A DNA stretch of 64,000 nucleotides from Peribolospora baueri. Lineage: Eukaryota; Basidiomycota; Peribolosporomycetes; Peribolosporales; Peribolosporaceae. The notes under the pieces were generated by a model. That model saw nothing but the letters and a program-made list of their open reading frames with translations, was not told the origin of the DNA and did not search any database. Location: NCBI GenBank assembly GCA_029717555.1, contig JAMDHS010000043.1, forward strand, positions 120,326-184,325, written 5' to 3'. Shown here one piece after another: positions 19,604 through 62,652 of this stretch (the stretch's first letter is position 1; each line of letters opens with the position of its first letter). The position numbers were made by a program, and so were the translations under genes.

Positions 19604-21007
19604 AAGTGGATTTGACAGAGTTACGAGGTGAGCATCGGAGGAGGAAGAACAGAAGGAGTTCTAAGGGCCCGCCCGCCTGGGTGATGGCTGCTTGTCTTGT
19701 CTTTCTGCTCCAGCATCGTCAACTTGCGCTTCGTCGGTCCGACGGGGCCGTGGCGGGGATGTACCGCTTTCCCCTACCAGGCCATTTAGGAGGGGTGCCG
19801 TGGCGGCCAAGCCTTCATCACGTCCTGTGCCATGCGGGATCGCGGTTGCGAAAATTGAACGAGACGGTGGCCATTGCCGGCATGAGGTCTGAGCATGATG
19901 TCCGTTATGGACGTCCAGATGGCCGTGCTTCTCCGTCGTTGTCGTCGGTGCGGTTAAAGAGGAGCTCTCCGTTGGCCGTCAAGTCGCGTACGGTGAGGGG
20001 TCCGAGCCGAGAGCGTCGCTAGATTCAGTCTTGGTTTACCCTTCTCTGTTCGTTTTTGTCCTTGCGCCCGGCTCGCCGAGGTGGAAGTTCGAGAGCTGTG
20101 CTGGCCGCTGTGTGTGAGGCAGCGTTGACGTGCGGATGTGTACGAGTGTTCGGTGCCGGTGGAGGAGCGAGTGAGGTGTGAGAATGGATGAGTTGGCGTC
20201 GGCGAAGGGGATGTGTTCGTTGTGGTTGTGGTTGTCCTCGCTCGCCTTGTTCTCGCTCTACTACTGTACTACTGTTCACCGCCGACGGACCTGATCAGAT
20301 CAGGTGGACTCACCCAGCTCACCGGCCCGGACGATCGATGCGGTCGGACGGCGGTGCGGCTGTTAATGATGATTAGAGCGGCGCAATTGGCTAATTAAGC
20401 CTTTCGTTATGCACTTAACTTGGCTAATTATGTCTCTCCTTATCCACTTTCCATCTCTCCGCCTCGCCCACTCCTTGGCTTGCCTCGCCTCTCCTCGCTC
20501 GCTCCTCCTCTCCGCTCCGCCTCCTCCGCCTCCGCCGCTCAACTTCGGCTGTCGTCGCCTCGACCGACGCGTTCGCCTCGGCGCCTTTGTTTGTTCAACG
20601 TCGGCGTCGTCGTCGTCGCCCGACGCCGCCTTCCTTCCCCTAACCCTTTCTTGCCTTCGTCCACATCACCTTGCCGCCCGCCATCGCCTCGCCCACGACT
20701 GACGACCAGACCAGACCAGCACCAGCCAGCGAGCAGCCGCACCCTAACTCGCACTCGCACCCCGCAACGGCAACGGCAACCGGCGCGCCCTCGACCTTGC
20801 ACACTCCCGGCTCCCTCGCATATACATATGCGCACAGACGTACATATCTACATGACCTGACCACCCCGTCGTCGTCGTCGCTCTCCCACGCACCCTCTCA
20901 CACGCACCCGCGTCCGCACCGCTCGCCCAAACGGACGGCGAGGACGAGCGACGAAAGGAAACGAACGAAGGAGAAGACGGAGAAGAAGAAGAAGAAGAAA
21001 GGTCGCC
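19604..21007. other. Upstream region and leader of the BEM2-like gene
   Basis: About 1.4 kb. 19604-20022 may hold further exons of the preceding hypothetical gene. From about 20430 the sequence is strongly C/T-rich, ending in a purine-rich GAA run (about 20980-21001) just before the ATG at 21008. Long frames through this stretch are compositional. A long pyrimidine-rich leader is typical of fungal promoters. Confidence 0.45.
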
Positions 21008-21499
21008 ATGCTCCGACGCAACAAAGCGCCGCCCGCTCGCAAGGACAGCGCAGGCGGTGGTGGCCAGCCGCCGCCAACCTCGACCTCGGCGTCGCACTCG
21101 CCCTCGTCGCCCATATATACCCATCACCACGCCGACGCGCTCGCCTCCTCCCCTTCCCTCCTCTCCATGCACCCTCCCCAACAGGCCTACTACCCTCCCT
21201 CTTCCCCTTATTCCCCCTCCGCCGCATCCCGTCCTCCAGACAACACCGCCGTCCACTATCACCAACGCGCCAGCCCCAGCAGCTCCTCTGGCTCCCAGCA
21301 AGCCTACTCCGCCGGCCACTCCCAGAGCCAGGCCTACGGCGCCCCTTCCACCGATGCCCAGAGGAGGCCCTACGCCGGCCCCAGCGCGAGCTCCAGCATG
21401 TTCGACCTCTCCAGCCCGTCCACTGCCTCGCCGCCCGCTCCGTACGGCGGACAGATGGCCGCGCCCACCGGCCTGCCGCCGCGCTTGCAGCAGAGGCCT

Positions 21500-21537
<38 letters not shown>

Positions 21538-24500: not shown

Positions 24501-24576
24501 AGTGGAGAACGACGGCTGCCTCGTTGCCGGCCGCCGTCGAAACGGACTTGCCAGCGGCGGATGCGACCGTCAAGCA

Positions 24577-24611
<35 letters not shown>

Positions 24612-27600
24612 CTTGGGTTGGCAGAGGACCGCATCCCGAGCTTGTCATCGCGCCCTTGCCATCCTTGTCTGAGCCAGAGTGGTCAGGTGCGGACGGCGAT
24701 GGCGACGATCATGGAGTTAGAGATGGAGATGGAGATGGAGACGGAGATGTCGTCGCGGCGGATGGCGACGCCACTGCACCCGGGTCGAAGAGGACAACGT
24801 GGTTGGAGAAGGTGCGAGGAGGGACGATCCCCGCGTTGGCGCACGAGCTCGTCTTCGCTACGCAATTGGACGTCCTCGACGAGTCTGGCGTGAGAAGCGA
24901 GTCTCCCGCCTCTCCGTCCCCGGCGTCCGTCGGGACAGGTGGCACGCATTTGGGATCCGCACTGGACGAAGAGGTGGATGCGTTCGTCAAGCCGGTCATT
25001 GGCGCTGCCGTCCTGCGTCCTAGCGTGGGCGTCCCGGCGCTTGTCGAAGAGGTGCAGAGGAATGTCCGGCTTGCGCTATCTAAGGACGAAAACGCCGACG
25101 TCGCCGCCGCCACCGCCGTGGACAAGGCTCGCTTGGCGCAGAGGCTGCGCAGCTTTGTCGTTACCCTTCTTCGCCAGCTTCCACGATCTTGCCGACGCGA
25201 CGAGATCCGAGCGAGCCTCGTCGACTCGCTTAAGGCGACGCATGATGGCCTCGTCGCGTCTGCCGAACAGGCCGGCTCGCACCTCATCTCCCTACTCGAA
25301 CAGACGCCCCCCGTGGAGCTGTCGCAGACAGACTTTTCCGCCGCTCCTCAGCCTTCCAAATCGAACCGCCCGGAAATGGACGCCCTCCGTCACAAAGGCC
25401 TCACCCCCGCCTTGTTTCTTAGTCTCGACCCAGCCGAGATCGCGGGCCAAGTGACGGCCTTCCACGCCGACCGACTCAAGGTCTTCTCTTCCATGTCTAC
25501 TCCCTTTTCCTTCCTCGCTCGCCTCAGCGACCCTGACAACCAGTCTGCCACGTCCGCCTTTGCGTTCTCGCCTCTCGTCCCACATCCCCTCACCCGACTC
25601 ATCTTGCAGCAGCTCCTTCTCACTCCGGCTCCTCACCCCCGCCATACCCCGCCGCCGTCCGCTCGGGCACCTCTCTTGTCTCGGTGGATCCGCGTCGGCG
25701 AAGCGCTGCGCACGTCGGGTGACGCTGCCGGCTGGCTCGCCGTCGCCACTGCAGTGTGTTGTCGCGCCATCGCTCGCCTGTACGACACGTGGGCGATGAT
25801 CGAAGAGGAGGAGATGCGGACGGTGGTAGAGGTGTGGATCACAGAGTTGGCCAGGCTAGGACTCTCGGAGTGCGAGGATACTAGCGTGAGGGAACTCGTT
25901 CTCGGGGCGCCTGATGGAAGGCCCTGCGTGCCTTTTCTGGGCACCCTCATCGACGATGTGATCAAGGTCCTCGACGGCGGGGACGACGGGCAGTCGATCG
26001 TGCTCGCCAAGGTGGCAGAGGCCGAGGGCCGCGTCGGAGACGTGCTCGACAAATGTCGTGCCGCTAGGTCGTTCGCTGCACCCGCGTCGGCGACGACGGC
26101 CGAACCCGTACACGAGTATCAGGCCTTCTTCCAGGCCCTCTTTTCTCATCCAGCCGGGCCCGAGTCTGCCGTGCCGTCCTTCCTCCAGCCGTCGCTCCAA
26201 GTCGAGCCTAAGAAGCTCGGCAACGTCGATCTGAGCCTCCGGCCGCTGGAACAGCCGCTTGCGCGCGCCACCGCCAACCTGCCCCTCGTCTTTTCCGAGA
26301 CCCTGCCCTACCTCTCTTTCGTCGAGCGGGACGATAAGGAATTGGCGGCGCTTGGTATCGTGAGGAAAGACAAAGGCGGCGACCGGCAGACTGGACAAGA
26401 CAGGTTCATGTTCGTCCTCGGTGCTTTGGCCAGGGCGAGCGGCTCAACAGCTCGATCTATGCTCGCTTCTTCTTCCTCTGCACCTTCGGATGAGCTCTTG
26501 GTTCGCGTGGCTGACGGAGAGCTCGTCCTGCACGTCATCTCCGAGTCCGTTCGCAATTCGGTCACGCCGTCTCGGAGTGCCAGTCGACGATTCAGCCAAC
26601 TGTCTGACCTGTCCCGCAAGACCGGATCTTCGGCTAAACGTAGCAGCGCGCCTCCCTCTCATCGAAGCTCGTTTACGCCCGGCGAGCGTCGATCCAGCGC
26701 CGACGTGCATCGCCGGGAGGCGACCACCCACGAAGATGATGGCGGAGGTAGCGGCGGCGAGACGTTGACCGTCGCCGTCAAGGCGGGCACGTTGGAGCGG
26801 CTCGTCGATTGTCTCGTTCTCGGTGTCGGACAGCTGCAAGCCTCTACGGCTGACGACATTGGTCACCTTCCACCCGCCGTCTTGCGCAAAAAGCGCTTGT
26901 CCCTCGATCTCGACGAGTACCGATCCGCCTTTCTCTCCACTTATCGCACATTTTGCGATCCCCTCGTCCTCTTCGAACTGCTTAAGAAGCGCTACACGGG
27001 AGCCAGCGGTGCGGCCAAGGAGCTCAAGGCCGCACAGGAGTTTGGCGTTAAAGGCTCGAATAGGTACCCCGCTTGGTTGCCGACCTCGGACGACGCGGAA
27101 GGCCCGGATTTGACGGTCGCTTGGGCCATCCGACGTTCCATCCTCGCCATCCTTCATCGATGGATCTCTGAGCACCCGGCGGACTTTCGGGACTTTGCAG
27201 ACCTGCACGATTCCATGTTCACTTTCCTTGATCAGGTGATTGCCGCCGCCGCCACCGCTACCGGGAAGGATGAACGGAGGAGCGGACAGGTCTCGGTGCA
27301 AGAGGGTGCCGAAATTCGGCTGACGCTCGTCTTGCAACTGCTCCGGCCCAGCGTGCGCGTTCCCGAGGCGCGGGAGACCGGCGCACGGAGTGGGCTCGAT
27401 GAGGCCGCTCTAGAGACTCTCAGCCTTTCATCCACCTCCGCCGAGGAGATCATTCGGGCGTTAGAGCCAGCTACCCGTGCGTGTCGGGCGGAGATCAATC
27501 GCACTGATCTACTCGCTGCCGCCGAGGTGCTATATACCCAGTCCGTTGACCTTTTGGGCTGGTTCCCCACTCGAAGTCTCTCGGGACCATCGGATGAACT

Positions 27601-30597
27601 CGTCATCTCGACCATGTACACCACGCTTGCAGAGGCGTCTCCTCCAGGAGACGCCGGCGGCCCGTCTCCCCTTGGCAAGATGCCTATCTCGGTTCAGAAC
27701 GCCGTGAACGCTTTCGACCTGGTCCGCGCCTGGTTCACGTCACAGGTGGCCGATCCCAGCATCGGGCTGTTGGAGAGGCAGCGGCGGCTGGAAAAGTTGC
27801 TGCGCATCGTCGAGCTCTGTAGGGCTAGGACGGTCAAGGCTACGGGCGGCGCGTCGGCCATTACCGGTCAAGAAGGCACGATGGTGGAGCTGCGCCAGCC
27901 GACAATACCGTCCATGGTGGAGTGCGCTGCGGTCAACAGTCTGGTCAGCCCAGAGTGTCGACTCTTCGTCAGGGCTTGGCAGGGCCTGTCGGTCGCACGG
28001 ACCGTCATCGGCGGCGATGCGCTGCTCGACTACATCTCGGCTACCATGCTTCTGCCTAGGCAGGAGACGAACTTGAGCAACGTCGTCGACTTGGGTTGGC
28101 TGTTGGAGAGGATCGTCGAGCTACTCATCACACCGGGGTCGGTACGGGGCGGAGACGGTTTCGTGCTGTTCGAACGTCACCAGAGGGTCGTCCAGCTCAT
28201 CGACGTCAGTCTGGCCTTCCTTCTACAAGGCTCCAACGACACCTCTTTGTCAGCGGCCGAGCATTTGCAGGCTCTGAGACGACGCCTCAAGACGAGTCCA
28301 TTGGACCTGCAGATGCTGCGAGAGGTAGCCGCTCAAGAATCCTCCAATGCCCTCCCCATGGCCTCGACCAAGCACGGGACGGGCAAGGAGAAGCCGCTGC
28401 ACTCTCTCATCGCCACGCAGAAAGAGAAGATTAGACGTGATCGCCAGGCTCGGGAGATGGTTTCTCACGAGAGGGCCAATGTGCAGCAGCGGACGGACCG
28501 GCGGCAGAAGGAGCTGAGCAGAATGATGGAGCGGCCCGACGCCAAGGCGCCCCCGCGACGACGAATGACGGCCCTCATCCGTGGCGCCGTCCGACCCCTG
28601 TCGATGGCGTTCAACGACAAGACCGATGGCGCTCCACGAGCCGCGCCGAGGCCTCCGATCGAGCTGTTGGAAGCCGTCAGCACCGTACGCACGAGCTTTG
28701 CGATCGGTCTGGATTGTGCCCAGGTTTCCCGATGGCCCAGCAGTCATCGGCCCTGCGTCTTTCACCTTCAGTCAGAAGAAGGCGGAAGCTATCTACTCCA
28801 AGCGCCGACGCAGGCCGAGCTTGCCTCTTGGTTCTCGCACATTAGCGATGCCGCCAAGGTGTCCGCCGTGAGGCGGTCCACATACGTAACTGCTCGAGTT
28901 AGCCATGACGCCCCGAGAAATGGCCTGCGGGCGAGCAACGGTCGACCGAATGGTGAGAGCTTGTTGCAGTTTTATGTTGACCAGCTCGACGCTAATGGGC
29001 ATCTTCTTTTGTGCTATCGAAGCCACTTTTGGGGTCGACATCAAAGAGTTACTGGAGAGAGAAGGCACCGAGGTACCTATCGCCTTGGAGCGCATGCTCG
29101 CTGAGGTGGAAAGTCGAGGTGAGCTACGATTTGCTCCACATCCGACACGTTCCCCGCTGATTGATTTATTTCGACGTTGCACCATCATGTAGGCCTGCAA
29201 GAACAAGGAATTTATCGGATATCCGGCGCGAAGAGCAGCATCAATGGGCTGCGCCAGTTGCTCGACTTTAGTGAGTACGCCCTCGTATCCGTAGACCGCA
29301 CAGCCCCATTTTGAAGGAACGGTCTGCTCATCTGCCGTCTGAACACGCGCACAGGCCCTCCGGAGAGCGTGGACCTTGAGACCGGCGAGTTTAGTGACGT
29401 GCACACCATAGCCGGCACCGTCAAGCTCTTCCTCCGCGAGCTGCCCGAGCCACTTGTCCCGTTCTCTTCGTACCAGGAGTTCCTTGCCGCCGAGCGTGAG
29501 CACTTTACTCGTGTGAGCAAAAACAGCCGAACAGTGACCGACCGCCAGTTTTCTTCTTTACATATTAGGTATCCAACACTGGGATGAGCGATTATATGCG
29601 CTGAGGGATGCCGTGTGGAATCTTCCATCCGCCCATTTCACGACCCTCCGGAGGCTGATGGATCATCTTTTCAGGTAGGCGGCGAGATGGCTTTCAAGAT
29701 CGTGAGCGGTCTCACTGACCCCGTGTGCCTGCCGTCCGCCTTTTTGCTGCTCCAGAGTGTCTGAGAACGAAGAGTTTAACTCGATGGCCCCGCACAACAT
29801 CGCCATCGTGTTCGCAGTGAGTCCCGCATTTGGCCGTTTTTCCACCCTCTGTTAGTGCTAACCGACATGCCTCGGTTCTCCCAGACGTCACTTTTGCAAC
29901 CCACGCCCAGCTCTACTTCGGTCGGCGAGTCGTTTGGGAATTTGGGTGCGCAACGTCTCCCACATATCTACATTTTTTGTATACCGGCTGACTTGAGCAT
30001 CGTGCGACATCTTTTGCAGGCAAAGCGGCTCACGTCGTCAAGTTGCTTCTCACCCAGTCTCACTGGATCTTTGAGCCTGCGCCAGAAGCTGACGCTGAAG
30101 AGGAAGAGGCGGCGGAAGACGTGGTAATGGAGGAAGGTCCTGGTAAACCGACGTCAGAATACCAAGCTTTGGAAGGTCCTGCGCCAGAGGATCAAGGGGA
30201 GGCAGTGATGTTGGCCGAGACCATAGAGGTCGGCGATGGAGCCGAGCTTAGCGTCACAAGCGAGCCCCTGGCCGCAAAGGTCACTGCTGATGAGGCGCCT
30301 TCGATCGCCGAGTCCTCCACGCTCGCCGAATCCGCGTTTGTGGATGCGTCAAGCATGGTAGAGAAAATCGACGGGGTCAACGAACCACTCGTCGCGACGA
30401 CGACATCGTCCACGACGCCAGTCGAGTCGGCGTTCGAGCTCGAGGCACGTCCGCGGTCAGAACTGTTCAGCAATGGAGCGCTGCCTCCCCTTCGGGTCGG
30501 CAGCCCTCTAGGCCTGCTGGACCTCGGCGAGTCTTTTGTCGATGCGCTGGGCGGCGAGGACGCTATTGCGAGGCATAAGCATGTGGACTCGACGTGA
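21008..30597 (+). CDS. BEM2: BEM2-like Rho GTPase-activating protein (PH, RasGEF-like, PH, RhoGAP)
   Basis: Exons: 21008..28952, 29023..29118, 29193..29270, 29355..29495, 29569..29674, 29756..29816, 29885..29945, 30020..30597; 9066 nt, 3021 aa, phases consistent. The first 960 residues are Ser/Pro/Gln-rich with two polyQ runs. A split PH-like domain lies near 965-1045 ([29 protein letters not shown]). A RasGEF N-terminal-like domain (about 1918-2090; [13 protein letters not shown]) and a degenerate CDC25-like domain (about 2230-2440) follow, then a second PH (about 2540-2620) and a RhoGAP domain encoded by the small exons (about 2650-2890). The RhoGAP domain carries the arginine-finger motif GIYRISG and the helix [13 protein letters not shown]. 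This order matches yeast Bem2, which turns off Rho1/Cdc42 in bud-site and septin control. The acidic C-terminal tail of about 130 aa is unusual. The intron-free 7.9-kb first exon contrasts with the intron-rich GAP part. Confidence 0.87.
21499..21553 (+). repeat. CAG/CAA repeat encoding polyglutamine (first of three in the BEM2-like gene)
   Basis: Mixed CAG/CAA codons encode about 18 consecutive Gln around residue 170. Further runs lie at about 21760-21797 and 24574-24610 (12 Gln, almost pure CAG). The mixed codons suggest selection for Gln rather than simple slippage, except in the third run. Confidence 0.9.
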
Positions 30598-46527: not shown

Positions 46528-49500
46528 TCACGCCCCCATTCGCTCCTCCGCCGCCGCCGCCTCTGCCTGGATCTGCTGTCGTCTCAGCTCCGGGTCGATA
46601 GAGGAGGCACTAGCTTCTGCCGAGTCCGCAGCCCGCGTAGCCGCGTTCGATGACGACGACGACGACGACGACGACGTTTCCTTGGCCGTGGCCGTGCCTT
46701 CGCCGACGACCTGCTCGAGCATGTCGCCGCCAAGCTGCCTGCCCTCCTCCTCTTTGGCGACATTCATGCCCTGGCCTTCCGAGCTCGCAGCGACGGCGGT
46801 GCCGGCGCCGGTCGCCTGCTGCTCTTGCTGAGGTTGCGACTGCGACTGCGACTGCGATTGTCCTTCTGGTTGCTTCTGCTTTGCCTGCACAGGCGGGTCG
46901 AGCTTGCGCGCCGAAGACTGAGCAACACGGACGTCGCCCTTGTCAAATACGTTACGACCAGGCTCGACGGGATCGACGATGACGGAGGACGTGGTACTGC
47001 CGCCGTCGCCCAGGACACTGGCGCCCAAGAGCTTTTCTCCGTCTTTCGAGCCGGGTCCGACGGCGACGGGGGTCGAGGGCACAGCTTGGTTGGATTTGGA
47101 GGACAAGCTATGGTAGGCATCGTAGGACGTCGGGAATTCATTGCTATCCGCGAATCGTCAAGCCCCAGACGGCGGGTCAGCGAACGGCGGCGGGTGGGAA
47201 GAGCTCGCAAAGGTCTTTCAGCTCTACGCGTCCCGCCTAACTCACCAAGCGAAATCCCACGACTTCATCCACTTTGCGCTATGGCATCCCGACTGCGTCC
47301 ACTGTCCGGCGTACGTCAACGGGGCGAATTTCCACCAGCACAGCGTGGCGATGATGACGACGACGGCGGCGATTTGGAGACGTATGCGCGGACGGAGAGC
47401 GGCGGTGGCGAAATCAAAGAGGGCACAGAGGAGGAGGATGGCGAAATAGAGAGCGGGTAAATAGTGATGGAGGAAGAGCTGGCGGTTCATGAAATAGAAG
47501 GGAAGGTAGTGAAGCGCCCAGCCAATAGCGAGGAAAGAGCAAAGAGAGTCGTAGAAAACGATGGTGGCTGCAAAAGTGTGAGGAGAAGGAACGAGGGTCA
47601 GAAAGATGGAGCGGCGGAAGCATTCTCGGCGTTCGATACTCACAGTCGTTGAAATCCGAGTATCCCCTCTTGGCCCTGAGTAACAAGAGGGCCTTGGCGG
47701 CCGCGTAGACCAAGATGGCCGCGGTCGAACCCCACCAAATGAACGGGTTGCCGATCAGGTAGACCTGGCGTTTGTCTTTGTTCCAAAAGTTGATGCCGCG
47801 ACGGAGGACTGGCCACGTCGGAGGACGGGAGTCGTAGGCGTGTCGATCAATGAGGCCCGCGTTGGTCTGCCACATGACGGCTTGTAATTCGAAGAATTTG
47901 GTGAAGAAGGACGGGGGCACGTAGTTGACTTTGGGAGCATCCTCGGGCACTGCGAACGGGAAACGACGCCGAAAATTTGAATCCAGAAGAGTAAAGAGCG
48001 CGGTCGACGAGAAGGTACTCACGTCCGGCATGTTCATTCGTCTCGATGTACCATATCGTGCCAGGCCTCGTGGGGTTCTTATTGCAAGTGACCTCCTGCT
48101 GTCCGAAGCCCCAATCGGGCAAAGCGATCTTGTGGCTGAAGAGGTAGCAACCCGTGAGGGTATGCCTCAACCTGATCTTGGTCCGAATCGCTTTCACCGC
48201 TGGAGGACCCTTCCCATCGTCATGGCCGCCATCCTCCACCTCGACGATAAAGTTATCGTTGGCATCACCGTCGAAACCGTCGAAGCCGTAGCCGGTCACC
48301 TCGTTTTGAAAGTCGGTCTCCGTGATTGGTGGACGCACGCCGTCGTGGGAGTGGAGGTTCTTGGTCGTCATGACATGCTTCAAGCGGATCTCTTGCTTAT
48401 GACGCAGGAGGTGAATGGGCTCGTCGGGTCGGGTGTAAGGCAAGTCGGGGTGCTCAACGAGGAAATCGGTGGCGTTGAGGACTTGCCAGACGTTGTTCTC
48501 GTCGCTGTGCGGGTAGAGGGTGACCTGTTGCTCTGGAAGAATTCCATCAGAATGAGAAGGGTTAAGACGAATGGACGTGAGCTGAGGTAGTCAAAGGAAC
48601 GAAAGCGCCCTCGGGCAAGGCACCTCTCTCCACTCACGGTGGCTGCCGGCGGGGTACTGGTGGGTGTGGGAGTGGAGGTAGCCACCCTGCGTGTTGAGGT
48701 GGCGAAGGGTGATGTTGGAGCCCATGGCAACGTCTGCAAAATGGGAAGGAAGGAAGGATAGCAGTCAGACGACGGGCGTCCTCGCGCTCAGACAAGCGGC
48801 ACGAGAAGGCGAGGCTCACCGGCAAAAGTATCGTCCATGCCATGCCCGCGGAGGGTGTGCTGGAAGGCAGAAGACATGAACCCATCTCCCTCACCGCTGT
48901 AGGCGAGCAAGGCGAAGTGAATTCCGAAAATGGACATGTAAACGGAAAGAGGGAGGATGATGAGGCAAAGGACGCGGGCGCTGAAATGTTTGAAGAGGAT
49001 ACGAGGCGGAAGACGGAGATCGCCGAGGTGGCGCCACAGCTGGGCGATGGTGGCGAAGCCAACGGTGGAGATGGTGAACAGGCCGACCCATTTGCAGGAC
49101 ACGACTGCGCCGAGGGAAGCGCCCGTCAGGCTGAGCCAGGCCCACCACGGCTTGCTGAAGGGCCCTCGAAGCGGCGCCCCGTCTCGTCCGGCGGCGACGC
49201 CCTTGGTGCCCTGACCGCCGGTCGCAAAGCTTCCCTTCCTCTCCTCGTTGGAGAAGCCGACCCAGGCAAAGACAGTGAGTGCGGTAAAGAAGAGGAGAGG
49301 CGAGTCGAGAAGGATGAACCGGGACTGGGTGACGAGGCCGTTCTCGAAGGTGATCAGGAGCCCACCGACCATGGCTGTCGTGGCGCGGCAAGAGAACATG
49401 CGGAGGGTGAGATAGGTGAGCGGGACGAGGGCGATGCCAAGAAGGGCGGGGAGGAGACGCATAGAGATGTAGGGCACGCCGGCGGAGACATAGTCGCTGA

Positions 49501-50940: not shown

Positions 50941-52947
50941 TTAATCGACAAAGGAGCTCCATTCGGCCCTCGGCCCCCTCCTCTCCATCTCGTCCCTGAC
51001 CATCTCGATGTAACCCTTCCAACCCCTCATCCCGTCCGTCGCGCCCCATCTCCTCTCGACGCTCTTGCACACGTCCACCTCAAAGCCGGTACAGTCGACC
51101 GCGGCGTCGCTCCAATCGGGTGACGGCGGGATGCCAAACGCTGCCGGATCGGTTTCCCGGCACTTTGTGAGTCCGCCTTGATCAGAAGACGCGTCGTCGT
51201 CGGCGAGGGTCAGTGGAGAAAGGTCGACGTCGAACGGCCTCCTTTCCAGGATCTCTTTCATCCCCAAAGCGCGGCGTGCGCGGGCGGTGTCGAACGCAAC
51301 GAGCTTGGAGATGAACGGCTGGTAGACCTTGAGGAGGTTCTTCCACGGAACGTAGGGCTCTGATAGCTTGACGTCCACTTGGTTGAGGAGGGTCATGGGG
51401 ATATTGGAGCCGGGCTGCAAGCCGGCGGCGATGTGATACGTGGGGACATTGGAGCCGTGGAGATTGAGCGGGTTGAGAGGATTGCGAGGGTGAGTGACGT
51501 GGGTGGAGGGGAGTTTGTGAGAAGAATGGGCAGAAGCGGTGAGGGCGACGATTTGATTGACGGCCACATCGATGGGGATCACTGGCGAGGATAGAAGAGG
51601 AGGTAGGTGAGAAGGTGCGACGTAGGACAGCGATCGGCGCGCTGTTGCTGCTCACCGTCCAAGCCGGCGCCATGGGCGATTAAGCTCCAGTCCTCGACCG
51701 GTTCGGCGGCGATGGCGGCACAAAGCGGGCTGCTGGGATGTCCGGCTCCCCAACCCTTCCTGGGAAATTCGACGGCGGGTCCAATGGTGGAAAGACGGAG
51801 GATTCTGAAGGCCTTGCCGTGCGGGCGGCGGCCGGCCTGGGGACGGGCGAGGGCGTCGACGCAGGCTTCAGCGAGCGTCTTGGCGTGAAAGTAGGTATTG
51901 ACGTGGGAATCGTGGGTGTCGACGCTGGAGGACGAGGGGAGGTCGGGTTAAGGGGTGATGAGCGGCTGGTGGGTCGATTGGATTGGATCTCACGCGCACG
52001 GGTGCCGTACTGACGTCTCACGCGCACGAGTGCCGTGCCGTCAGCACAGCCACGGCCAGACTCACCGTTCGTCGAGGCCGGGCTGGACGAGTTGCTCTTG
52101 GACGATGGCGGCGGAGGGGACGAACCAAGCGACGAAGGTTGTGGAGAGGTGGATATGGGTCTTGACTCTATAAGAGAGGAGGGAGAATTGAGAGCTGACG
52201 TACGCCAGATCGGTCTGTAAGGCAAGGAAGGAGGTTAGCGGGGTGGGCGGGTGCACGGGTGGATCGGAGGGAAGACTGACTCACTATGCTTGCGACGGCC
52301 TTGCTGAGGGGCAGGGTGAATCTGGTGTCACCTGCGGTATGGATGACGATGTCGGCCTGGTCGACGATGTCGCGTTGGGGGCCTTGCAAGGCGAAGCCAG
52401 TGGTGCCACAGTCGCCGTTGACGACGACGAGTTTGGGATGTCGGTCATTTCCTTGATCGTCTTTGGACGTCTTGGTACATGCGCGTAGGACGTCAGGCAA
52501 TCGGGCGACGGCGTCGTCGACGGTCTCGCCTCGGATGAGAGCGATGACCTTTTTGATGCCCTTGAGTTCGGGATCGCAAAGGAGGCGGAAGAGGAGGGCG
52601 GTGCCTACGAAGCCGGCGCCACCGGTGACGAGGATGGTGGTGCCGTCGAGCACTTGGGGTATCGTCCAGAGCGGCGTGGGCTCGGGGGCGGGTGCGGAGG
52701 AAGGGGAGTAGGAGGAGGCGGAGGAGGAGACGGAGGCGGAGGAGGATGACAAGCCGTTGCACTCGGATCGGAGGGTGCTGGAGGCGAGGGAGACGGAGGA
52801 AGAGGAGGAGGAGTTGTAAGAAGGCGACTGATTCGCCTGGGCTTGGAGGGTGGTCGAGGTATCGTCGGTCATGGTGGCAAGGGTGGAAGAAGGAGGAATG
52901 GTTGTGTGCGGGGGGGGATTGGAATCGAGGGAAGAAGAGCGTTGCAT
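50941..52947 (-). CDS. NAD(P)-dependent fatty acyl-CoA/thioester reductase-like protein (NAD_binding_4 family)
   Basis: Minus-strand exons 52947..52285, 52214..52066, 51924..51656, 51581..50941; 1722 nt, 573 aa, phases consistent. A Ser-rich N-terminus (about 95 aa; a second Met opens MTDDTSTT) precedes a Rossmann fold with TILVTGGAGFVGTALL (about residue 103). Then VIALIRGE, DIVIHTAGDTRF, HIHLSTTFV and the catalytic-type NTYFHAKTLAE (YxxxK), followed by a substrate domain with LRLSTIGPAVEFP. This is the reductase fold found in fatty acyl-CoA reductases and in the C-terminal reductase of NRPS-like enzymes. There is no adenylation or carrier domain nearby, so it is a free-standing reductase. 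The product could be a fatty alcohol or aldehyde; the substrate cannot be told from sequence. Confidence 0.8.
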
Positions 52948-53849
52948 GTTCTTGCTCGGCGCGATTGAAAAGGGTCAACGGGCAAGGGGGAAGGGGGAGT
53001 CGGTGGGGTGCAAAGGTTCTGAGTGCCGGCCGGGCCGGTCGGATCGGGCCGTCGAGTCGAGCGGAGGCTAGGCTGTTAGTAGTTGGGCGTGGCTCTGCTT
53101 GTCTTGTCTCGTCCCGCCCAGCGAAGGCGTGTGGGTGGGTGCGCTCTTTTTCTAACGCTCGTGAGCGGGGTGGTGTCATAAAAAAGAGCCATCGAGGCGG
53201 CGAGGCGGGATGATTCCGTTGGAGGGGGGGTGAGGGGGCCGAGAGCGTGAAGGTGTGTTGTGTTCTGTTCTGTTAGGACGACGGGCAGGTTGCATTTCTA
53301 AATGAGAGCGACGAGCGATCGGAGGGGAAGGGAAGGAGCGAGGCTGTGAGACGGGCGTGCGTGACGCATGGCCGCCGTCGTCGGTCTCGCATGTCGTCGT
53401 CGCTGGGTCGCGCGTATGGCTGTGCCGGCCAGCGGGCGAGGCGACGTCGTGTGCGTCGCCGTCGCCGTCCGCCCTTCCGTCTGGGCCGTGCTCACAAATA
53501 GCCCGACGGGTCCCAAATAGAACCACACTCGAGCTAACTCAGGACGGACGGCGTCGGAATAGAGCCCTTAGGGCGGATCGGAATAGAACCAGAGGGCGGG
53601 GCCGAACAGAGGGAAAAAGACCCTCGGCGCAAATCACATGCGACGTGCGACAGGTGCAGGCGCCGCCCTGGTTGGCTCCGCTCGACTCGCTCGACTCGGA
53701 TTCTGCAGGGATCGACGCCCGGAAGGAAATTCGGGCAGGTGGTGCCCATATCCGTCTAGTTCCGGGCCGGCGCTCATGTCAGTCAAGGGCGGTGCGAAGC
53801 GCGTGAGCGCCGACGAGCCGCGAGCGCCGCTTACAGCACGTGACTCACG

Positions 53850-53905: not shown

Positions 53906-54350
53906 CACTAAATGCGGACGGCCGAGTCCTTGCTGTGTCGTCCGAGTCGGCCGGAGGCGCGTGACGTGGCTCAGCGACGGGTGGCGCCGTCCGCCCGCCC
54001 CCTTTCGCCCCGACTCGGGTCGACCGACCCGGGCGAGCGAGCGAGGTGACATCGCCGTCGCCAGGCGGGCTCCGAAGCAAGGCGCGTAGCAACCGGGGTG
54101 GCGCGTTAACAAATTCATGAGGGACAAATGCTCCGCTCCGCGTTTATCGTCATCGCCATCGCCATCGCCGGTTTGTACGCCCACGGCTCGCCGGGAAGAC
54201 TGACTTGACTACACGAGACGGCCAGGCCCAGGGCGACAACTTCTTCTTCTTACCAGCCCCCGCGATCGCCGTTCCTGCCCATATTGTCCACACCCCATCC
54301 CAATTCCATCTCCATTTCCATTCCATCTCCCATCTCCCTGCGCATATCCC

Positions 54351-54388
54351 TCTTCGTCTTCGTCTTCGTCTTCGTCTTCGTCTTCGTG
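54351..54388. repeat. (CTTCGT)n hexanucleotide repeat
   Basis: About six copies lie in the pyrimidine-rich leader 35-70 bp before the transporter ATG. The repeat is probably part of the core promoter or 5' UTR rather than coding. Confidence 0.8.
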
Positions 54389-54422
54389 CTCCGTTCCATG
54401 CCACGCTCGCCATCCCCATTCC

Positions 54423-56762
54423 ATGTCCCAACACCACCCACCCCACTCTCGTCCTCTCTCCGCGCCGTCTTTCCACTCAGTCGACTCCCATGGCTCCGCC
54501 TCCCAGCTGACGCTCCTCCGGAGCACCAGTCACATCGCCCTCGTCCCCTCCTCCATCGAGCCCTCACACGACCCTCGACTTCAGCTGCCCCCTTACACCG
54601 CCCCTCTGCCATCCACCGCAACCCAAGCCGGTCCATGGACCACCATCGGCCTCGGGCCAGGCCGAAGACTCTCTGTGCGCTCTCATCGTCTCCTTCCCGA
54701 CGACGACGGCCGCCATCCACAACACCCACCACCCCGGCCGCCGCAGAGGCCATCCAAGAACCTCGCCTTCTGGCTCGTCTTCGCCAGCCTCTGTGTCAGC
54801 AGCTTTTTGAGCGCGCTCGATCTGGTCAGTCCGCCTCGCCCAAAACCCTTCTCTCAAGACCTGTTTGCTCATACTCGCTCGTCCCTCGTCCTCTACTACA
54901 CCCTCTGCACAGACCACCGTCTCCACCGCCCTGCCCACCATCATCTCAGACCTTCACTTTCTCCGACACCCACACGACCCGTCCGCATCTTCAACCGACA
55001 CCGCCACCTCCGCCGCCGGAGACTACATCTGGGTCGGCTCCGCCTTTGCCCTCTCCGGAACGGCCATCTTGCCGTGGACCGGCGCCTTGGCCCAGATATG
55101 GGGCAGGAAGGCCGTCTTGCTTGCAAGCTTGCTCCTTTTCGTCGGCGGCAGCACCTTGTGTGGAGCCGCGAAAAAAATGGGGACGCTCATTGCCGGCAGA
55201 GGTGGGCACCCGACCGAATTCCTCCCTCCTTTCGCCGCCGTTCCGCTCTTGTCCGCCGTTTGACACCTCTCTCTTCCCCGCCCTCTTCGCCTCCAGCCAT
55301 TCAAGGTCTCGGCGACGGCGGGATCATCTCCCTCTCCGAGATCATTGTCGCCGACCTTGTTCCCCTCTCCGAGCGCGGCACCTACGAGGGCGTCCTCGGC
55401 GTCATCTGGGCCATCGCCAGCGCCATCGGGCCGCCCCTCGGCGGGCTCCTGAGCCAGAGAAACCACTGGCGCTGGTTGTTCTGTAAGTCCTCCTCCCGTT
55501 CAAGTAGTAGCCAAGGCGGCGGCGCCAATCGCTCCCTCGTCCTTGCGTTTTCCCCGTCGCAGACCTCAACATTCCCGTCTCCATCCTCGCCATACTCCTC
55601 GTCTCCGTCTTCATGACCATGAAGACGCCCCAGACCGATCTTCGAACCAAAATGTCCCAGATGGATTGGTCGGGCAACGCCATGGTCATCTGCGCCATGG
55701 TCGGCCTCACCCTCGCGCTCACCTCGGGCGGCGTCCGTTACTCGTGGTCCTCGCCCGCCATCCTCGTCCCACTCATCCTCGGATCCTTTCTTCTCGTCGG
55801 CTTTTTCGTCTATGAGATGCGCTTCGCCGCGTACCCGACCTTGCCCAAAGCGCTCCTCTCCAACCGCACCTCCTTTTTCGGCTATCTCACCGCCCTCCTC
55901 CACGGCGCCATCGCCATGGCCGTCATCTACGTCCTGCCCACTTACTTCCAGGCCTGTCTCGGGGCCAGCCCGATCCGGTCAGGCGTCATGATATTGCCGC
56001 TCGCGCTCACCGTCGCCCCATCCGCTATCGTGGCCGCAGCGAGCATCGAGATCAGCCAAAGGTATTTGCCCCAAAATTATATCGGATGGGTTCTGAGCGT
56101 GGTGGGCCTAGGGTTGATGACCTTGCTCCAGGTGAGTTGGACGGCATGGGGGCGTGGCTGGCGTCCGTAGCGTCGCCGACTGATTCATCCCGCAGACGAC
56201 CTCTCGACAGCTCGTCTGGGTCGCTGTCCAAATCCCTCTCGGAGCAGGCATGGGCATGCTCTTCACGACCCCACAATTCCCCGTCCTCGCGCCCCTCGAT
56301 CCCTCCCTCGCCGCTCAGGCTCTGGCACTGTATACGTTTGTCAGCAGTTTCGGACAGGTGAGCGGTCGGCGGCGTGCGTTGCGTCGAGTTACGCGGTGGA
56401 GCGGCTAGCGGCCCCCGTTAACTGTGGCTCGCCTTTCCCTCCTCGCGCAGACGTTCGGTATCGTCATCGGCGAGGCCATCTTGCAGAACCGCTTGGACAA
56501 GAGCCTCCCGGCCGCCTTTGCTCCTTATATCCCCGGGGGCTCCTCTCTCTCCTTTGCCGGCATCAAGCTCATCCGCCAACTTCCCGAGCCGCTTAAGAGC
56601 GAGGTACAAGAAGCCTTCGCCCAGTCGCTGAGAACGGTATGGTGGGCGATGCTTCCGCTGGCCGTCGTCGGGCTCTTGTCGTGCCTCCCGATGAGGGCCT
56701 TGGAGCTGCACGACGAGACGGATGAAGAGTATGCGATGGTCGTCAAGGAGCCCGGCAAGTAG
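54423..56762 (+). CDS. Major facilitator superfamily multidrug-type transporter (DHA2-like)
   Basis: Exons 54423..54824, 54913..55201, 55297..55482, 55563..56131, 56196..56357, 56451..56762; 1920 nt, 639 aa, phases consistent. A cytosolic N-terminus of about 115 aa rich in Pro, His and Ser precedes TM1 (LAFWLVFASLCVSSFLSALD). Then TTVSTALPTIISDL, the IWVGSAFALSGTAILPWTG helix, and motif A-like GRKAVLLASLLL. AIQGLGDGGIISLSEII and GPPLGGLL (motif C-like) follow. About 14 hydrophobic helices can be counted, as in drug:H+ antiporter-2 proteins of the plasma membrane. The substrate is unknown. A longer frame starting at 54284 in another phase does not carry the transporter sequence. The divergent neighbour is the reductase; export of its product is only a speculation. 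Confidence 0.88.
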
Positions 56763-58683
56763 AGCCGACGGAAGGGCTGACGAACGCCGAGAGGGCACGC
56801 ACTGCAGACATGCCCGGCGGTCCTATGCACGTCGTGTCGCCAATTCGATCGAGATTGCCACCAAAGCCCCGCTGCCGCGCCCATCAGAGCGATTGTTTAC
56901 TTCTGCATTCATCTAGGACACTTACTTTTTTTTTGCTAGTGGGACGAGGTGCACGATTTACGGCGAACGACCTGGTCGGGGCGTCCGGGCGCCAGGCGAG
57001 CATCATCTAGCGCCACCTTTTTTATTATTTCTTTTCTTGTCTGCACAACCTCCGCTTATCATCTTCTCAAATGCTCTCCTCGCATCTCACCGTCATCGTC
57101 ATCGCCATGGAACACATGAGTGTAATCTAGTGTAGATTTATCGAAACACACATCAGCAAACAAGGTTACCATATCCCTTTCCCTCGTCGTTGCTGTGTCC
57201 TCATTGGGGGGTACGGTGATGATGAACGAGGGGGAAACGAGAGAGCTATGAAGTGCGATAGGCCCGGCTCTTCGGTCTCCCCCCGTCCGACATTTTGAGT
57301 GACTTTGAAGTTCCAGAATAATCTTTTCGGAGTACCCAGCACAAAAGGCACCTGGATCAACAGATCTTGGCGAAGCCCAAGTGCAAGATGTCGGCGACGC
57401 TAGATGCCCAGGACGTAAGGGCCTGCCGACACTCGTGGCCGAAGCGGTGAGTGGTGATGCGCCCATAGTGAGCTGATGTCAACAGGAAGGGGGTGCTGAG
57501 TGAAGTCGCAGGAGCTTTCTCACTAGACCAGACCGTTTGCTAGCACTTGCAAGTCAGTCGTGGTCGATCCTCTTTCAAGCGCTACATATGCCGGTGCACC
57601 CTCGAGCGGGAAAGCCAAGCTCCGGAGGGAATGAGGTCGGTCATAGCGCCCAGACAAGTGGCGAGGCTGCCATAGGTCTCGCAACTGTTGGAAATGAAGA
57701 CATCAGCGTCGTGCAGAATGCAGGTAGCACGATCAGAAAAGCTTGTGCTCCTCGTTTGAACTGGTTGCAACAGCCATGTCGTAGTATCACCCGTAGACTT
57801 TGCTAGCGCACGGACGTCTTTAGTGGACAGGATCTTGATGGTAGAAGGGGTTGCGAACGCGTGCAGGCTAGCAGGACGTCATATGAAAGAAGCAACTACG
57901 CTTTTCTTGACCCCACTTGACGTCCTTATGGCAAATCCCAGACCATCGAAGGGAGTATTACCCTGGCGAAGAGAACGATTGAGGTTATCTGCAAATGGTG
58001 TATTGTAGTCGTCGATTTCTACCCTCCGTAAAGCTGCAAGGGCTTCTCGAGCTGATAGGAGCGCGAGGACGTCTTTGTGGGTTCGGACGAGCACGAGATC
58101 TCCCTGATCTTATAGCTCCGTTGCGAGCATAGACGGTGCTACCGCCTACAAGAAGCCCGACTAGCCGGTGGCGGTGATTGACTGAACCTCGCGAACGTCT
58201 CAAGATGGACGTGCATCAACAGTTATGTCGACGAAAGGGGCTGAAGAGGTATCCGGAACTAGCCGCATGGAAGCCGGTCTTTGTTTCGTATTAGTCCCAT
58301 TCAAGGGCAGTGGCATCTCTAAGGTCGAGGCAAGGAGGGGGTCTAAAGAACGATGCGAGGGTGAGACAGAAGTCAAAAGATTTATAGCCTCTGAAAGGAA
58401 GACATGCGCTTTCATACTCATCACTGTTAGTGATGACAAGTCCTTGACATGTGGACCTAAGTTTAAGGAGTGCAGGTTTGAGCGGCACGGCCTCATTCAC
58501 ACGAGCAGATCGACAATTGAAGTTTTTGTCTTCCTATTTATGCCGGCACGGATATGTAAGGTTTAGCGAGCTCGCCACTCAACCTTATTATAATCGAGCC
58601 CACTCCCTTTGGTATTCTTCCACGAAAATCAGATCATCCGTATTAACTCCCGCCTTCCTCATTCCCTCTTCACATCTCCTCAG
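56763..58683. other. Gene-poor region with decayed-looking minus-strand frames
   Basis: About 1.9 kb. AT-rich 3' sequence follows the transporter (56920-57060). On the minus strand, three frames look protein-like by composition. They lie at about 58496-58200 (RPASMRLVPDTSSAPFVD), 58094-57879 (VLVRTHKDVLALLSAREAL) and 57830-57582 (LLQPVQTRSTSFSDRATC, VFISNSCETYGSLATCLG). They could be exons of one unrecognised gene or a pseudogene; no phase-consistent full model was found. Confidence 0.35.
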
Positions 58684-59977
58684 ATGCCGTTAAAGCCCAA
58701 CGCTCAGTCTATGGACATGTCTGACCACGCTCGCCTCACTATCTCCCTTTCTGGCCCGGACCACATCGGCAAGACAACCATCCTCAGTCTCTTTCCCCGT
58801 TCATGGCCTCTGACTCATTTCGGGGACATCCATCTCTATGATGAAGAGATGAATGGGATGATCAATGACGGCTCTTTCAACACGTGGTGGTTCGGTCAGA
58901 AGGTCGAAGGAGGACCAGAGTTGCGTGTTGGAGCGGACGATAAAGAGTTTGTTCAGACAATCCTGCGAGCCTGCTCAGCTCGCAAAATGTTTCAAGACGG
59001 AAGAAGGTAGCCCCAAACCCATCCAAGTCGGAGGTCAGATTTTGTCGCTGTCCGGCAGTGTTTTCGACCGCTCCTCCCTTATGTTCGAAGCGGACTGCGT
59101 CACACATATCGCCATCCGCAACTCGATTGACTTGGACGAGGCAGAGAAGCGACTTGGCGGCATTCTTGCAGACATGGGCGGAGCCTTTCCTGCAGAGCAC
59201 ATTTGTTTCCTTTTGCGCTAAGAGGGGAGTATAGAAAGCGCAGTGGAGTGGTGCCTGGAGGCGGAAGGACGCTATAAACCCGTCACTCCCATTTACCGCC
59301 AGTACCAAAGGCTGCTTCATGAAGCTCTTGAGCGTCAGGTCATCGCTGGCCGCTACACGGCGGTTATTCTCCGCAGGGACGGCGAAACGTTCATTGAGAC
59401 GCTGTCCAAGGTTACTAAGGCCCTTCAGGGTCTATGCGGCGCGGAACATCCGTGGAAACCCTTGCTCCACAACCTGCGCTGCTGTCCAGCCTTCGGCGGC
59501 CTCTCCGAATGCGGTAAGTCGACGGTGGCTACGAATACCGTCTCGAAGGCCTTTGTCGCCACGGGCGGAGGCGCCTTTCGTCTCAAGATGGGCTACCTGC
59601 TTGAGCTAGCCGGAAAACGGCTGAATCGCGATATCTACGAGCTGCCTGAGAACGAGCGGGCCCTCGAATTCGTACGCGAGCTCGACCAGTTCTCGCGCTG
59701 GCATCGCTGGGTCCAAGTGATCACGCTCGAGAGCTTGCACGACTACAAGTTCACTCGTCGCGTACGCGAGCTGATCGGCCATGGCGTTCCCGGCAAGCTG
59801 CGTCGGAGCCGCACCGAGGCCGAGGGCAAGTCATTTGACATTTCCAAGGACGATGTGAAGATGTCGCGCGGAGCGGACAAGATCCGCGACATTGCCGACC
59901 TCGCCGTCGACAATTCGGGATCATTCCAAGATACCTGCGATGAGGTCTATCGCGTCGTGTCCCGCTATGGCATGTAG
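58684..59977 (+). pseudogene. Bacterial-type protein with two P-loop kinase domains, broken by a frameshift and a stop
   Basis: The first frame (58684..59010) has a Walker A-like LSGPDHIGKTTI and FGDIHLYD, resembling thymidylate-kinase-like domains. The similarity continues in the +1 frame (VFDRSSLMFEADCV, then a helical region) up to a TAA at 59219-59221. It resumes in that same frame at once: YRQYQRLLHEALERQVIAG, then a second P-loop FGGLSECGKSTVATN, FRLKMGYLLELAGKR, VITLESLHDYKFTRR and MSRGADKIRDIADLAVDNSGS, ending at 59977. This layout recalls actinobacterial kinase-like proteins (recalled, not searched). No intron of realistic length repairs either break. The roughly 1.3-kb intronless structure contrasts with all neighbours, which suggests horizontal origin followed by decay. 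Function is unknown; nucleotide phosphorylation is a guess from the fold. Confidence 0.6.
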
Positions 59978-61179
59978 TTCCATTCTCCTGTCGAAGTCAC
60001 TAAGTATCGCAAAGTGAGATGCACGCTTCGATGCTCTCGTGTGCTGAAATTGTTACAGAAAGGACGGGGACAGCTGGAAGCCGTCTGGAAGATATGAATT
60101 GGTATGAAAATAGATTATTCTGATCCAGGTGTCCCCTCCCTCCTCCAATGAGGGCTCGGAGGGCTGCTTTTATACTTGATGACAGGAGGGAGACCACAGG
60201 GACAGAAAAGAGGTGACGGAATGGACAATGGAGGGAAGACAAAGGATGAGGAGGTGTCGTATTGGATTGGAAAAGGCATCGGTGCATAGTAGAAAGGCTG
60301 TCCTCCATCGATCCTTCATCCGCGTGAGGATTTGATAGCATCGAAGGCGTGAGCGCAGGCCGCCTCGTCCTCGGATACGAGGGTGTTATTTACGAGTCCA
60401 GTCCGGCGCACCAGCGTGTGCCATCAGTTGTGCTATGTCAACAGACCTGGCAGCACTCGACCTCTGCACAGCAGGTATATCCTGGAGGACACCCGCTAGT
60501 ACAGTCTCCAGCCAAACACCCTGACGTACGGGGGTGGAAGCCCAACCTGTCTTGCGTAAGCGCAAACGAGGCTAGACCCAAAACGTATCGAAAGTTCATC
60601 GTACCGACGTTGGCGAGTCACTGAGACTGTATTGATGAAGAACGTTAAGCGGCGTAAAGCGATGACGGACTGGTGAGTCAGAACGAAGTGGCCATTCCAA
60701 CCGGGAATGCGAGCGGACGGGCGACTTAAGTACCAGGGGTTCCGTGCGAGCCCCGCACTCGACGGACACAGCCATAGTTCGATAGCGTGCGCCTTGTCAG
60801 GTCGGAGGGCCAATCAGAGCCATTACGTTGCACTCCCTCCCATGTAAGCGTTACGAGAGCTGGAATACCGGCGCAAGAGCATGAGGCAGAGGCGGTCACC
60901 GCAGAGATATGAGACGTAGGTGGCCGGGATCGCCGGCGGAAAGGGCAGGACGAAAAACGCGTGAGGATGCGAAGAACGTGGAATATGCGAGTCGGTCTGT
61001 TGCCATTTCTGGACCGCACGGTTGCTGCCTGCTTCTCTGAACGTGCAAGCGTTACGCGGTGTCGCGAATAACGTCGTCGTACATGAACTAGAGCCGTGTT
61101 ACATATAGGACAGCACTGCTGAAGAGAGCCTTGCATTGAGAACGGCACGCACCGAGTTCGACATCGGCGAAACTCATGC
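59978..61179. other. Unassigned region between kinase pseudogene and retroelement
   Basis: About 1.2 kb with no supported gene. Short frames on both strands lack motifs. It may include eroded retroelement sequence (the reverse transcriptase/RNase H part expected upstream of the integrase), but no YxDD or other catalytic motif was visible. Confidence 0.4.
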
Positions 61180-62652
61180 AGGGTGCCTCGCATTGATGGA
61201 ACCATGTTTGAGCGAGACGTGCGCAAGTCCGTGGCAGAGTGCGACACGTGTCAGCGCACCAAAGCCAGCAACCACAAGCCTTGTGGACCCTTGCAGCCGT
61301 TGCCGACTTCATCGCGACCCTGGGAGGTCTATCAGCGTCGATTTTATCACTGATCTTCCCATGTCTAGCGGTCTACACGGCGTTCCTAGCTCCATTGTGT
61401 CAGATAGGGATGGACGGCTTAATTCTCCTTTTTGGCAAGAACTATTCGGTCTCCTAGGTACCAAGTTCAAGATGTCCACCGCTTTCCACCCTCAAACGGA
61501 TGGTCAAACCGAGCGGACCAACCGTACCCTAGAACAAGTCTTCCAGGCGTACTGAAACTTCGAGCAAGACAATTTGACCACTCTCTTGCCGCTCGTAACC
61601 TTTGCTATCAACAACACCGAGTCTGCCTCGTCCAAGGTCTCTCCTTTACTTTGCCAATTTCGGCTACCAACCCCCAAGTCCCATCTACTATCAGTAAATC
61701 GTTGTCCTAGAACCCACCGGCCCAGGACTTTGCCACCAGCCTTAAGGAGACACACGCACCCGCGTTTCTCAGCAACTCCAAGCGGCTTAAGTCCGCCAAG
61801 CGACCGCCGCTAATCGGCATCGCCAAAACCACCCGTTCAAAGTTGGCGATTACGTCATGTTGTCTACCGAGAACATCAAGACCAAGCGTCCCTCTGCCAA
61901 GTTGGACTACAACTTGATCGGTCCTTTCAAGATTATTCGTGCAGTTAACCCCGTCGCCTTCGAACTCGACCTCCCAATATCCCTGTCTCGCCTTCACCCA
62001 GTCTTTCACAACTCCTTGCTCAAGCCTTACCGAGGCCCCGTCAACCGATCTCAACCTCCTGATCCCGTTTTAGCTGATGACGGCGAGCCAGAGTATGAAA
62101 GTTGAAGCTCTTCTGGACCGCCGCGGCTCCGGTAATTCGTCGTGAATACCTTGTTCAAGTGGCGCGGTTACCCACTTTGGGAAGTCAGGTGGGAACCCCT
62201 CAAGAATCTTGTCCACTCTTGCGATCTCGTCCACGGTTACGACCGAGCTCATCCTGCATTGACTGATCTTGACGCTTCGAGGACGAAGCGTCCTAGGAGG
62301 AGGGCAATGTAACACGGCGCCGTCGGGCGGGCCCCAGCTGTCGCGTCGTCGCGTGCTTCTGAAAGCCCGGCTATTCCCATGTTCCTCCGCGTTTTCCCCC
62401 AACACCACCGCTGCCGTCGCCGCCTCCCGACGATGTTGATCTTGAAAAACAGACCTCCATAACCTTAGTTTTCCAATTCCCTAGCTTCCTAAGTCCTGGT
62501 GCCCAGTCCTAGTTCCTTGCCCTTGCTCTCTAGTCCTTGAACCCTTGAAACCTTATTTTTTCCCTTGTCCTTGCGACCTTGTCCTTGTTGCCCACATCGT
62601 ACACGGCAACTGGCGCATTTTTCATCACATCGCGCCGACCACTCGTGTTACA
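61180..62652 (+). mobile_element. Degenerate 3' half of a Ty3/gypsy chromovirus: integrase, chromodomain, 3' LTR
   Basis: Integrase zinc-finger end ([13 protein letters not shown], about 61230), catalytic-core pieces ([39 protein letters not shown]) and the C-terminal GPFKIIRAVNPVAFELDLP...LHPVFHNSLLKPY occur in order but in different frames, with stops between them. A chromodomain remnant follows (EALLDRRGS), with frameshifts, ending just before the LTR. This order identifies the chromovirus branch of Ty3/gypsy. Gag, protease and reverse transcriptase are not recognisable upstream and no 5' LTR was found, so the copy is truncated and non-autonomous. It lies about 1.2 kb from the bacterial-type kinase pseudogene. 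Confidence 0.85.
62308..62652 (+). repeat. 3' long terminal repeat of the chromovirus (345 bp)
   Basis: Starts TGTAACAC and ends GTGTTACA, a perfect 8-bp terminal inverted repeat with TG...CA ends. A purine-rich tract (GGAGGAGGGCAA) directly precedes it, as expected of a polypurine tract. The interior contains pyrimidine-rich CCTTGTCCTTG repeats. Confidence 0.8.

Follow-up and report, generated by a model that had tools for sequence, protein, structure and literature searches.

Among the closest known relatives of the gene reported here are two groups of P-loop proteins, the thymidylate kinases (PF02223 and TIGR00041) and the adenylate-kinase-related proteins (AAA_18, PF13238, and the structure 3lw7 from Sulfolobus solfataricus). 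We analysed a 64-kb window of the genome of the fungus Peribolospora baueri (the whole stretch, C116:120326-184325; the assembly comprises 178 contigs and 22.1 Mb, and the window closes where its contig does) and found at 58717-59977 the remains of a gene that combines both types: a domain with a predicted thymidylate kinase fold (K1), followed by an adenylate-kinase-related domain (K2) with the signature GGLSECGKS. Positions without a contig name refer to the window. The status of this stretch as a pseudogene, derived from a family of two-domain P-loop proteins, is secure. We further consider it quite probable that it is a dead copy of a protein of bacterial ancestry, which was acquired long ago, duplicated and then broken independently in both copies.

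Models of known families do not capture this protein. All Pfam models stay below their cut-offs when run on the fungal-clade proteins, eight database entries (P0001-P0008, from the sources jgi, lgn and ena) that group with the P. baueri copies. PF02223 gives no fungal-clade match, and its best bacterial K1 scores 21.2 bits against a cut-off of 27; TIGR00041 finds nothing in the window pieces, P0002 or P0004, and its best bacterial match scores 18.6 against a cut-off of 83.25 (both in locus L046, a Clostridia metagenome-assembled genome, MAG). The best fungal-clade score to the AAA_18/3lw7 type, 22.3 bits for P0006, is likewise under the cut-off. When the window pieces themselves were scanned, Pfam returned nothing at E 1 and NCBIfam just three chance-level ABC-type matches (E 0.15-0.24), all to the first piece; matches in a viral structure library were generic nucleotide kinases. 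Literature searches, judged by their listings and titles, found no description of the two-kinase family, which within the reach of these searches is apparently undescribed; the initial annotation had envisaged an uncharacterised nucleotide-kinase-like family, should homologues occur in other fungi.

The nearest named relatives sit in bacterial operons, and one of the closest systems is actinobacterial. In Streptomyces and Nocardiopsis, a K1 gene (~216 amino acids) adjoins, and often overlaps, a K2 gene that has DUF4254 (PF14063) in front of K2 and a nucleotidyltransferase domain behind it. These genes (P0012 of Nocardiopsis alba; L005 and L006 of Streptomycetaceae) carry the same K1 and K2 signatures, with best tblastn segments 35-47% identical, whereas L025, a locus of Kitasatospora phosalacinea with another architecture, reaches 28%. 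The fungal-clade proteins differ in being one chain and in having neither extra domain; DUF4254, present in P0012 and P0014, had no match in P0001-P0008 or the window pieces. The same domain order in one chain is found in six loci of Patescibacteria, unclassified MAGs and an archaeal MAG (L011, L020, L022, L029, L045 and L051), at 25-28% identity to P0004.

In place of the single continuous frame of about 380-460 codons that is the norm of the family, the window copy has three open pieces that overlap on the plus strand: one in the frame of 58594, ending at TAG 59008-59010; one in the frame of 58862, ending at TAA 59219-59221; and 59222-59977. Both P-loops that the initial annotation had reported in one broken gene are there and in the expected order, GPDHIGKTT at about 58753-58779 and GGLSECGKST from 59495, and residues 109-359 of P0002 match the copy with an E value of 9.4e-86 when the TAA is read through, a similarity that chance does not account for. 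The N-terminal part of K1, in frame at 58717-58980, matches residues 3-95 of P0002 (E 8.2e-19) and keeps 14 of 15 family-invariant residues (columns identical in all relatives present, at least four of seven). At 58980/58981, pairwise alignment shows the window to be 11 bp shorter than a second copy on contig C28, and the shifted frame runs into the TAG at 59008-59010. The frameshift first proposed from the sequence is thus real, although the position given for it, 59000-59035, is where the shifted frame meets its stop.

K1 continues in a second frame at 58981-59218 (open reading frame 58862-59221, aligned to the C28 copy and P0002), with a DRS motif at about 59066-59074; in the part tested, 7 of 10 invariant residues are retained. 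The in-frame TAA already noted is present at 59219-59221; in its place the C28 copy has an arginine codon that differs by two bases. The third piece, 59222-59977, holds the end of K1 and the K2 domain, and keeps 58 of 64 invariant residues, with 4 deleted and 2 changed. Its earliest in-frame ATG, at 59588, lies beyond the second P-loop, so K2 is not producible from an ATG within that piece. Two findings go beyond what had been noticed before. One is the C28 copy itself, which is broken too; the other is a loss of 90 bp, in frame, at 59795/59796. This loss, located by pairwise alignment, removes the K2 strand LVVYLDTPL (motif VYxDTP), which is conserved in alignments A2 and A3 and which C28 retains.

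This one further copy came to light when the assembly was searched at the DNA level; it lies at C28:1486-2852 on the minus strand, 82-87% identical in two pieces and 1.5 kb from the end of its contig. A search with P0002 gave no third copy in the assembly, and no intact copy was found in its 22.1 Mb. When C28:1-8000 was compared with the window by blastn, 58541-59800 aligned at 79.6% and 59796-59981 at 87.6%, with no other match at 1e-3. Because the common stretch is limited to 58541-59981, the unit copied was the gene plus a short upstream stretch (58541-58716, plus strand), which measures 176 bp if counted to the likely start, 58717, or 143 bp if counted to the ATG at 58684. A processed (retro-) pseudogene appears unlikely, as homology to the sister copy reaches 143-176 bp upstream of the possible starts and no A-tract follows 59977.

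The two copies, identical at 1,064 of 1,294 aligned bases, carry different lesions. The C28 copy has one base more than the window at 59335/59336, its first P-loop is ruined (SPDNIDKKT), and its second reads GGLSKCGKST instead of GGLSECGKST. Over 417 codons, the nonsynonymous rate (dN) is 0.138 and the synonymous rate (dS) 0.402, a ratio of 0.34, and the differences fall 64, 46 and 106 times at codon positions 1, 2 and 3, respectively. Of the family-invariant columns, 79 of 89 are preserved in the window copy (4 deleted, 6 changed) and 84 of 90 in the C28 copy (6 changed). The dN/dS ratio and the retention of most invariant residues point to a functional ancestor and a recent, separate decay of both copies.

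A frame for a NUDIX hydrolase (C28:3204-3854, minus strand; L002:2952-3602) immediately precedes the C28 kinase copy, in the same orientation and in the bacterial order. Its likeness to the operon NUDIX is weak, with 38% identity over 58 residues to that of L045 (E 7e-4), and hydrolases of the MutT1 type give a better score (40.3 bits to 5gg5). Against the open reading frames of 54 prokaryotic loci described below, its best matches were opposite-strand frames, at most 25.4 bits, and the sole same-strand frame listed was L052:2761-4125 at 12.9 bits. The genome has no second match to it, and neither it nor the L045 NUDIX has a matching counterpart in the window. This adjacency may be a trace of bacterial gene order, with chance as the default explanation. 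The NUDIX gene and the broken kinase lie on a segment of about 3 kb flanked by a 175-bp direct repeat, 93% identical (C28:1084-1258 and 4158-4332; L004), with no further match in the assembly.

Relatives of the gene were sought among 5.8 billion proteins. The second C28 piece gave six matches, from which alignment A2 was built; the first piece gave nothing at 1e-3. Searching with A2 returned 13 proteins among 7,997 candidates scored. Seven are close relatives, a set that lacks P0006, and the other six are DUF4254 proteins with E values no worse than 1e-17, of which a single one has a name, from Nocardiopsis alba. In all, eight further proteins, probably fungal, group with both fungal copies; the initial annotation had left homologues in other fungi conditional. 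P0002, P0003 and P0004 are full-length (445-460 amino acids), and members were 42-57% identical to P0002 in one comparison. P0005 has a 16-residue insert, V first and Q last, that is missing in its sister P0004 and looks like an unspliced 48-nt GT..AG intron.

Applied to genome contigs through the patterns GGLSECGK and VYxDTP, the A2 profile identified 54 loci. By record title, 41 are Actinomycetota, in agreement with the actinobacterial kinship first suggested for the double kinase, and 13 are others (Patescibacteria, a Pacearchaeota MAG, Bacillota and unclassified MAGs); five of the 13 (L054-L058) have a K2-like protein only. K1 and K2 share one chain in L011, L020, L022, L025, L029, L045, L046 and L051. 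Some of these chains are longer, with a NUDIX domain N-terminal of K1-K2 in L022, a C-terminal nucleotidyltransferase in L025, and C-terminal nucleotidyltransferase-like and NUDIX domains in L046 (where the nucleotidyltransferase match, 18.8 bits, is under the Pfam cut-off of 21). A NUDIX gene is nearby in L011, L020, L045 and L051, and there is none in L029. The genome of L025, Kitasatospora phosalacinea by record title, has a second K1-K2 copy (G003:C57:22381-23610, L071), 67% identical to the first.

Around these kinases we found a conserved gene set, NUDIX - K1 - K2 - nucleotidyltransferase. Most instances come from Streptomyces and Nocardiopsis; Patescibacteria and a Clostridia MAG have it as well. 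After one profile round, and with many of the 54 loci being close kin so that the counts are not independent, NUDIX was present in 48, an uncharacterized protein of about 345 amino acids in 45, DUF4254 in 40, a phosphoribosyltransferase in 39, an XRE regulator in 33 and a carbamoyltransferase in 2; the nucleotidyltransferase was found in 47 with an actinobacterial C-terminal query and in 21 with an L022 query. Single-sequence searches gave NUDIX in 47, nucleotidyltransferase in 40, the 345-residue protein in 44 and phosphoribosyltransferase in 39. Among the 48 loci with K1, NUDIX is fused in 2, upstream on the same strand in 41 (its end overlapping the K1 frame or at most 60 bp ahead of it), elsewhere in 4 and absent in 1. 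The companion protein, about 345-438 residues long (L022:3280-4311, L046:2301-3347 and L006:9018-10334), had no Pfam match in the two examples scanned. The two carbamoyltransferases (Carbam_trans_N and _C; L022:5023-6657 and L046:3361-5001) lie near two-kinase genes of distantly related bacterial MAGs.

The prokaryotic distribution is patchy and rare in the sampled phyla: of 296, 286 and 299 genomes, the family was found in 2, 1 and 4, respectively, with one previously known carrier in every count and three of the last four being weak matches. Viral contigs held nine pattern stretches, none of which was confirmed; phages gave no match, and plasmids gave three Streptomyces records, partial and unannotated. 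An anti-phage library returned nothing for P0002, P0012, the L005 K1 or the L022 345-residue protein. The NUDIX parts of L022 and L046 matched the candidate-defence model PDC-S07 (2.7e-15 and 4.1e-8), the nucleotidyltransferase parts matched oligonucleotide-cyclase and other candidate models (3e-5 to 1e-2), and the P-loop parts matched VakA weakly, as L022 also did BrxA. We do not propose a defence system, because these matches fit general NUDIX and nucleotidyltransferase folds, although such a role is conceivable for the bacterial set.

A tree of K2 with 48 rows places all ten rows of the fungal clade (P0001-P0008, the window and C28 copies) on one side of a branch with support of 100/99. The eight such rows of a 28-row tree of K1 and K2 (without P0006 and C28) also hold together (100/100), and under midpoint rooting they stand beside Actinomycetota (95/90). 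The stem of the clade is long, at 1.18 to 1.25 changes per column. In approximately unbiased (AU) tests, grouping the fungi with actinobacteria other than L025 gave p = 0.031. The trees thus point to one fungal clade with prokaryotic affinity, and the bacterial ancestry of the gene is likely; a direct actinobacterial donor is uncertain. Of the suggestion that the gene was horizontally acquired and is now decaying, the decay stands, with two differently broken copies, and the acquisition is likely.

Several observations weigh against our interpretation. Neither the grouping of the fungi with six Patescibacteria-like rows (AU p = 0.064) nor that with L025 (p = 0.060) was rejected, and the trees are unrooted, with long branches (L025, L029 and L046) and uneven composition. 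K1 falls under the thymidylate-kinase cut-offs of both Pfam and NCBIfam. The dN/dS ratio is uneven along the gene, from 0.21 to 0.57 by segment. We infer that P0001-P0008 are fungal from their clade, the intron-like insert of P0005 and the mid-protein starts of P0001, P0005 and P0008. The K1 P-loop is degenerate in P0003 (GADEVGSTT) and P0007 (GADGTETAT), with K2 intact in both, so that K1 may be dispensable and its activity lost in part of the family.

The alternative that survives best, though we regard it as unlikely, is that this is an old fungal or eukaryotic gene, passed on by vertical descent with frequent loss, and that the bacterial copies came from eukaryotes or reflect an ancient split. 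The depth of the fungal clade and the 42-57% identity of its members to P0002 mean that the gene is not a recent arrival, which fits such descent. However, homologues in prokaryotes are spread over Actinomycetota, Patescibacteria, an archaeal MAG and Bacillota and belong to a conserved set of genes, and no such set is seen around the fungal copies, bar the NUDIX gene of another type beside the C28 copy. The patchy prokaryotic distribution also counts against it.

It is very improbable that the gene is functional and read through tiny introns, a frameshift or stop read-through, which the initial annotation had offered as an alternative in the form of recoding or very short introns. The residual constraint is clear, and splices that would open the frame can be drawn in theory: 65 single introns (GT/GC-AG, 20-400 nt) and 144 double combinations (GT-AG, 20-120 nt), counted without a shuffled control. 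Yet at both break sites the alignment with the sister copy and the relatives continues as coding sequence, which leaves no surplus DNA for splicing to remove. The candidates set out individually were 33 single GT-AG introns and 30 of the 144 doubles; all 33 singles are 223-400 nt long and would take away K1 coding sequence, with the DRS motif, that aligns to the sister copy. The 90-bp loss of the K2 strand would persist, and the sister copy is broken elsewhere.

Even less probable is that the lesions are assembly or sequencing errors. Both copies do lie near contig ends (that of C116, and 1.5 kb off for C28), but the lesions of 11 bp and 90 bp are outside homopolymers, the stop codon differs from its counterpart by two bases, and the sister copy has damage of its own, including its first P-loop. 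Bacterial contamination, which a bacterial-type gene without introns might suggest, can be dismissed for practical purposes, since eukaryotic-type genes (RhoGEF/BAR, RasGEF, MIR-domain) share the 64-kb stretch, a paralogue lies on another contig and the nearest tree rows are fungal-clade proteins rather than bacteria.

Elsewhere, the window encodes a RhoGEF/BAR protein (820-1938), a protein with a MIR domain (47850-48590; protein mannosyltransferases are its best matches of solved structure), a NAD_binding_4 protein (52171-52974) and an MFS exon (54204-55613). These genes are in keeping with a fungal genome; exact patterns of ITS1 and LSU primers had no match in the assembly. The statement that every confident neighbouring gene has introns was not confirmed: the frame 20861-29101, with RasGEF domains, is uninterrupted over 2,747 codons, and that at 2203-8700 on the minus strand, with no Pfam match at 0.001, over 2,166. 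Given such long uninterrupted frames, intronlessness alone is weak evidence of transfer. Just downstream of the kinase pseudogene, at about 61150-62310, is a degenerate coding stretch with partial matches on four other contigs, which we take to be a relic of a retrotransposon integrase; the sole frame of it scanned, 61109-61552, had no Pfam match.

Under the reading that we favour, a two-kinase gene would have entered fungi from bacteria long ago. The gene, with some 140-175 bp of upstream DNA, would then have been duplicated in this genome, and both copies would first have been held under purifying selection and later broken independently. Each domain of the working protein would presumably have moved phosphate from ATP onto a small substrate, which for K1 would most likely be a nucleoside monophosphate, and one chain may have performed two phosphorylation steps of a single nucleotide-modifying or salvage route. 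A broader view, which we put forward tentatively and hold as somewhat doubtful, is that of a nucleotide-phosphorylating system shared between domains of life. The prokaryotic set would comprise a NUDIX hydrolase, K1, K2, a nucleotidyltransferase and the ~345-residue protein, in actinobacteria also a phosphoribosyltransferase; its two-kinase core would have been taken by fungi as one protein, working alone, and gained and lost repeatedly.

The two-kinase family is common to a fungal clade and scattered prokaryotes, and the conserved bacterial neighbourhood makes its pathway testable. The fungal case is probably that of an acquired gene at the end of its life, with two long-constrained paralogues separately broken in one genome. 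Compared with relatives in which one copy is retained, a fungus that has lost both would amount to a natural knockout.
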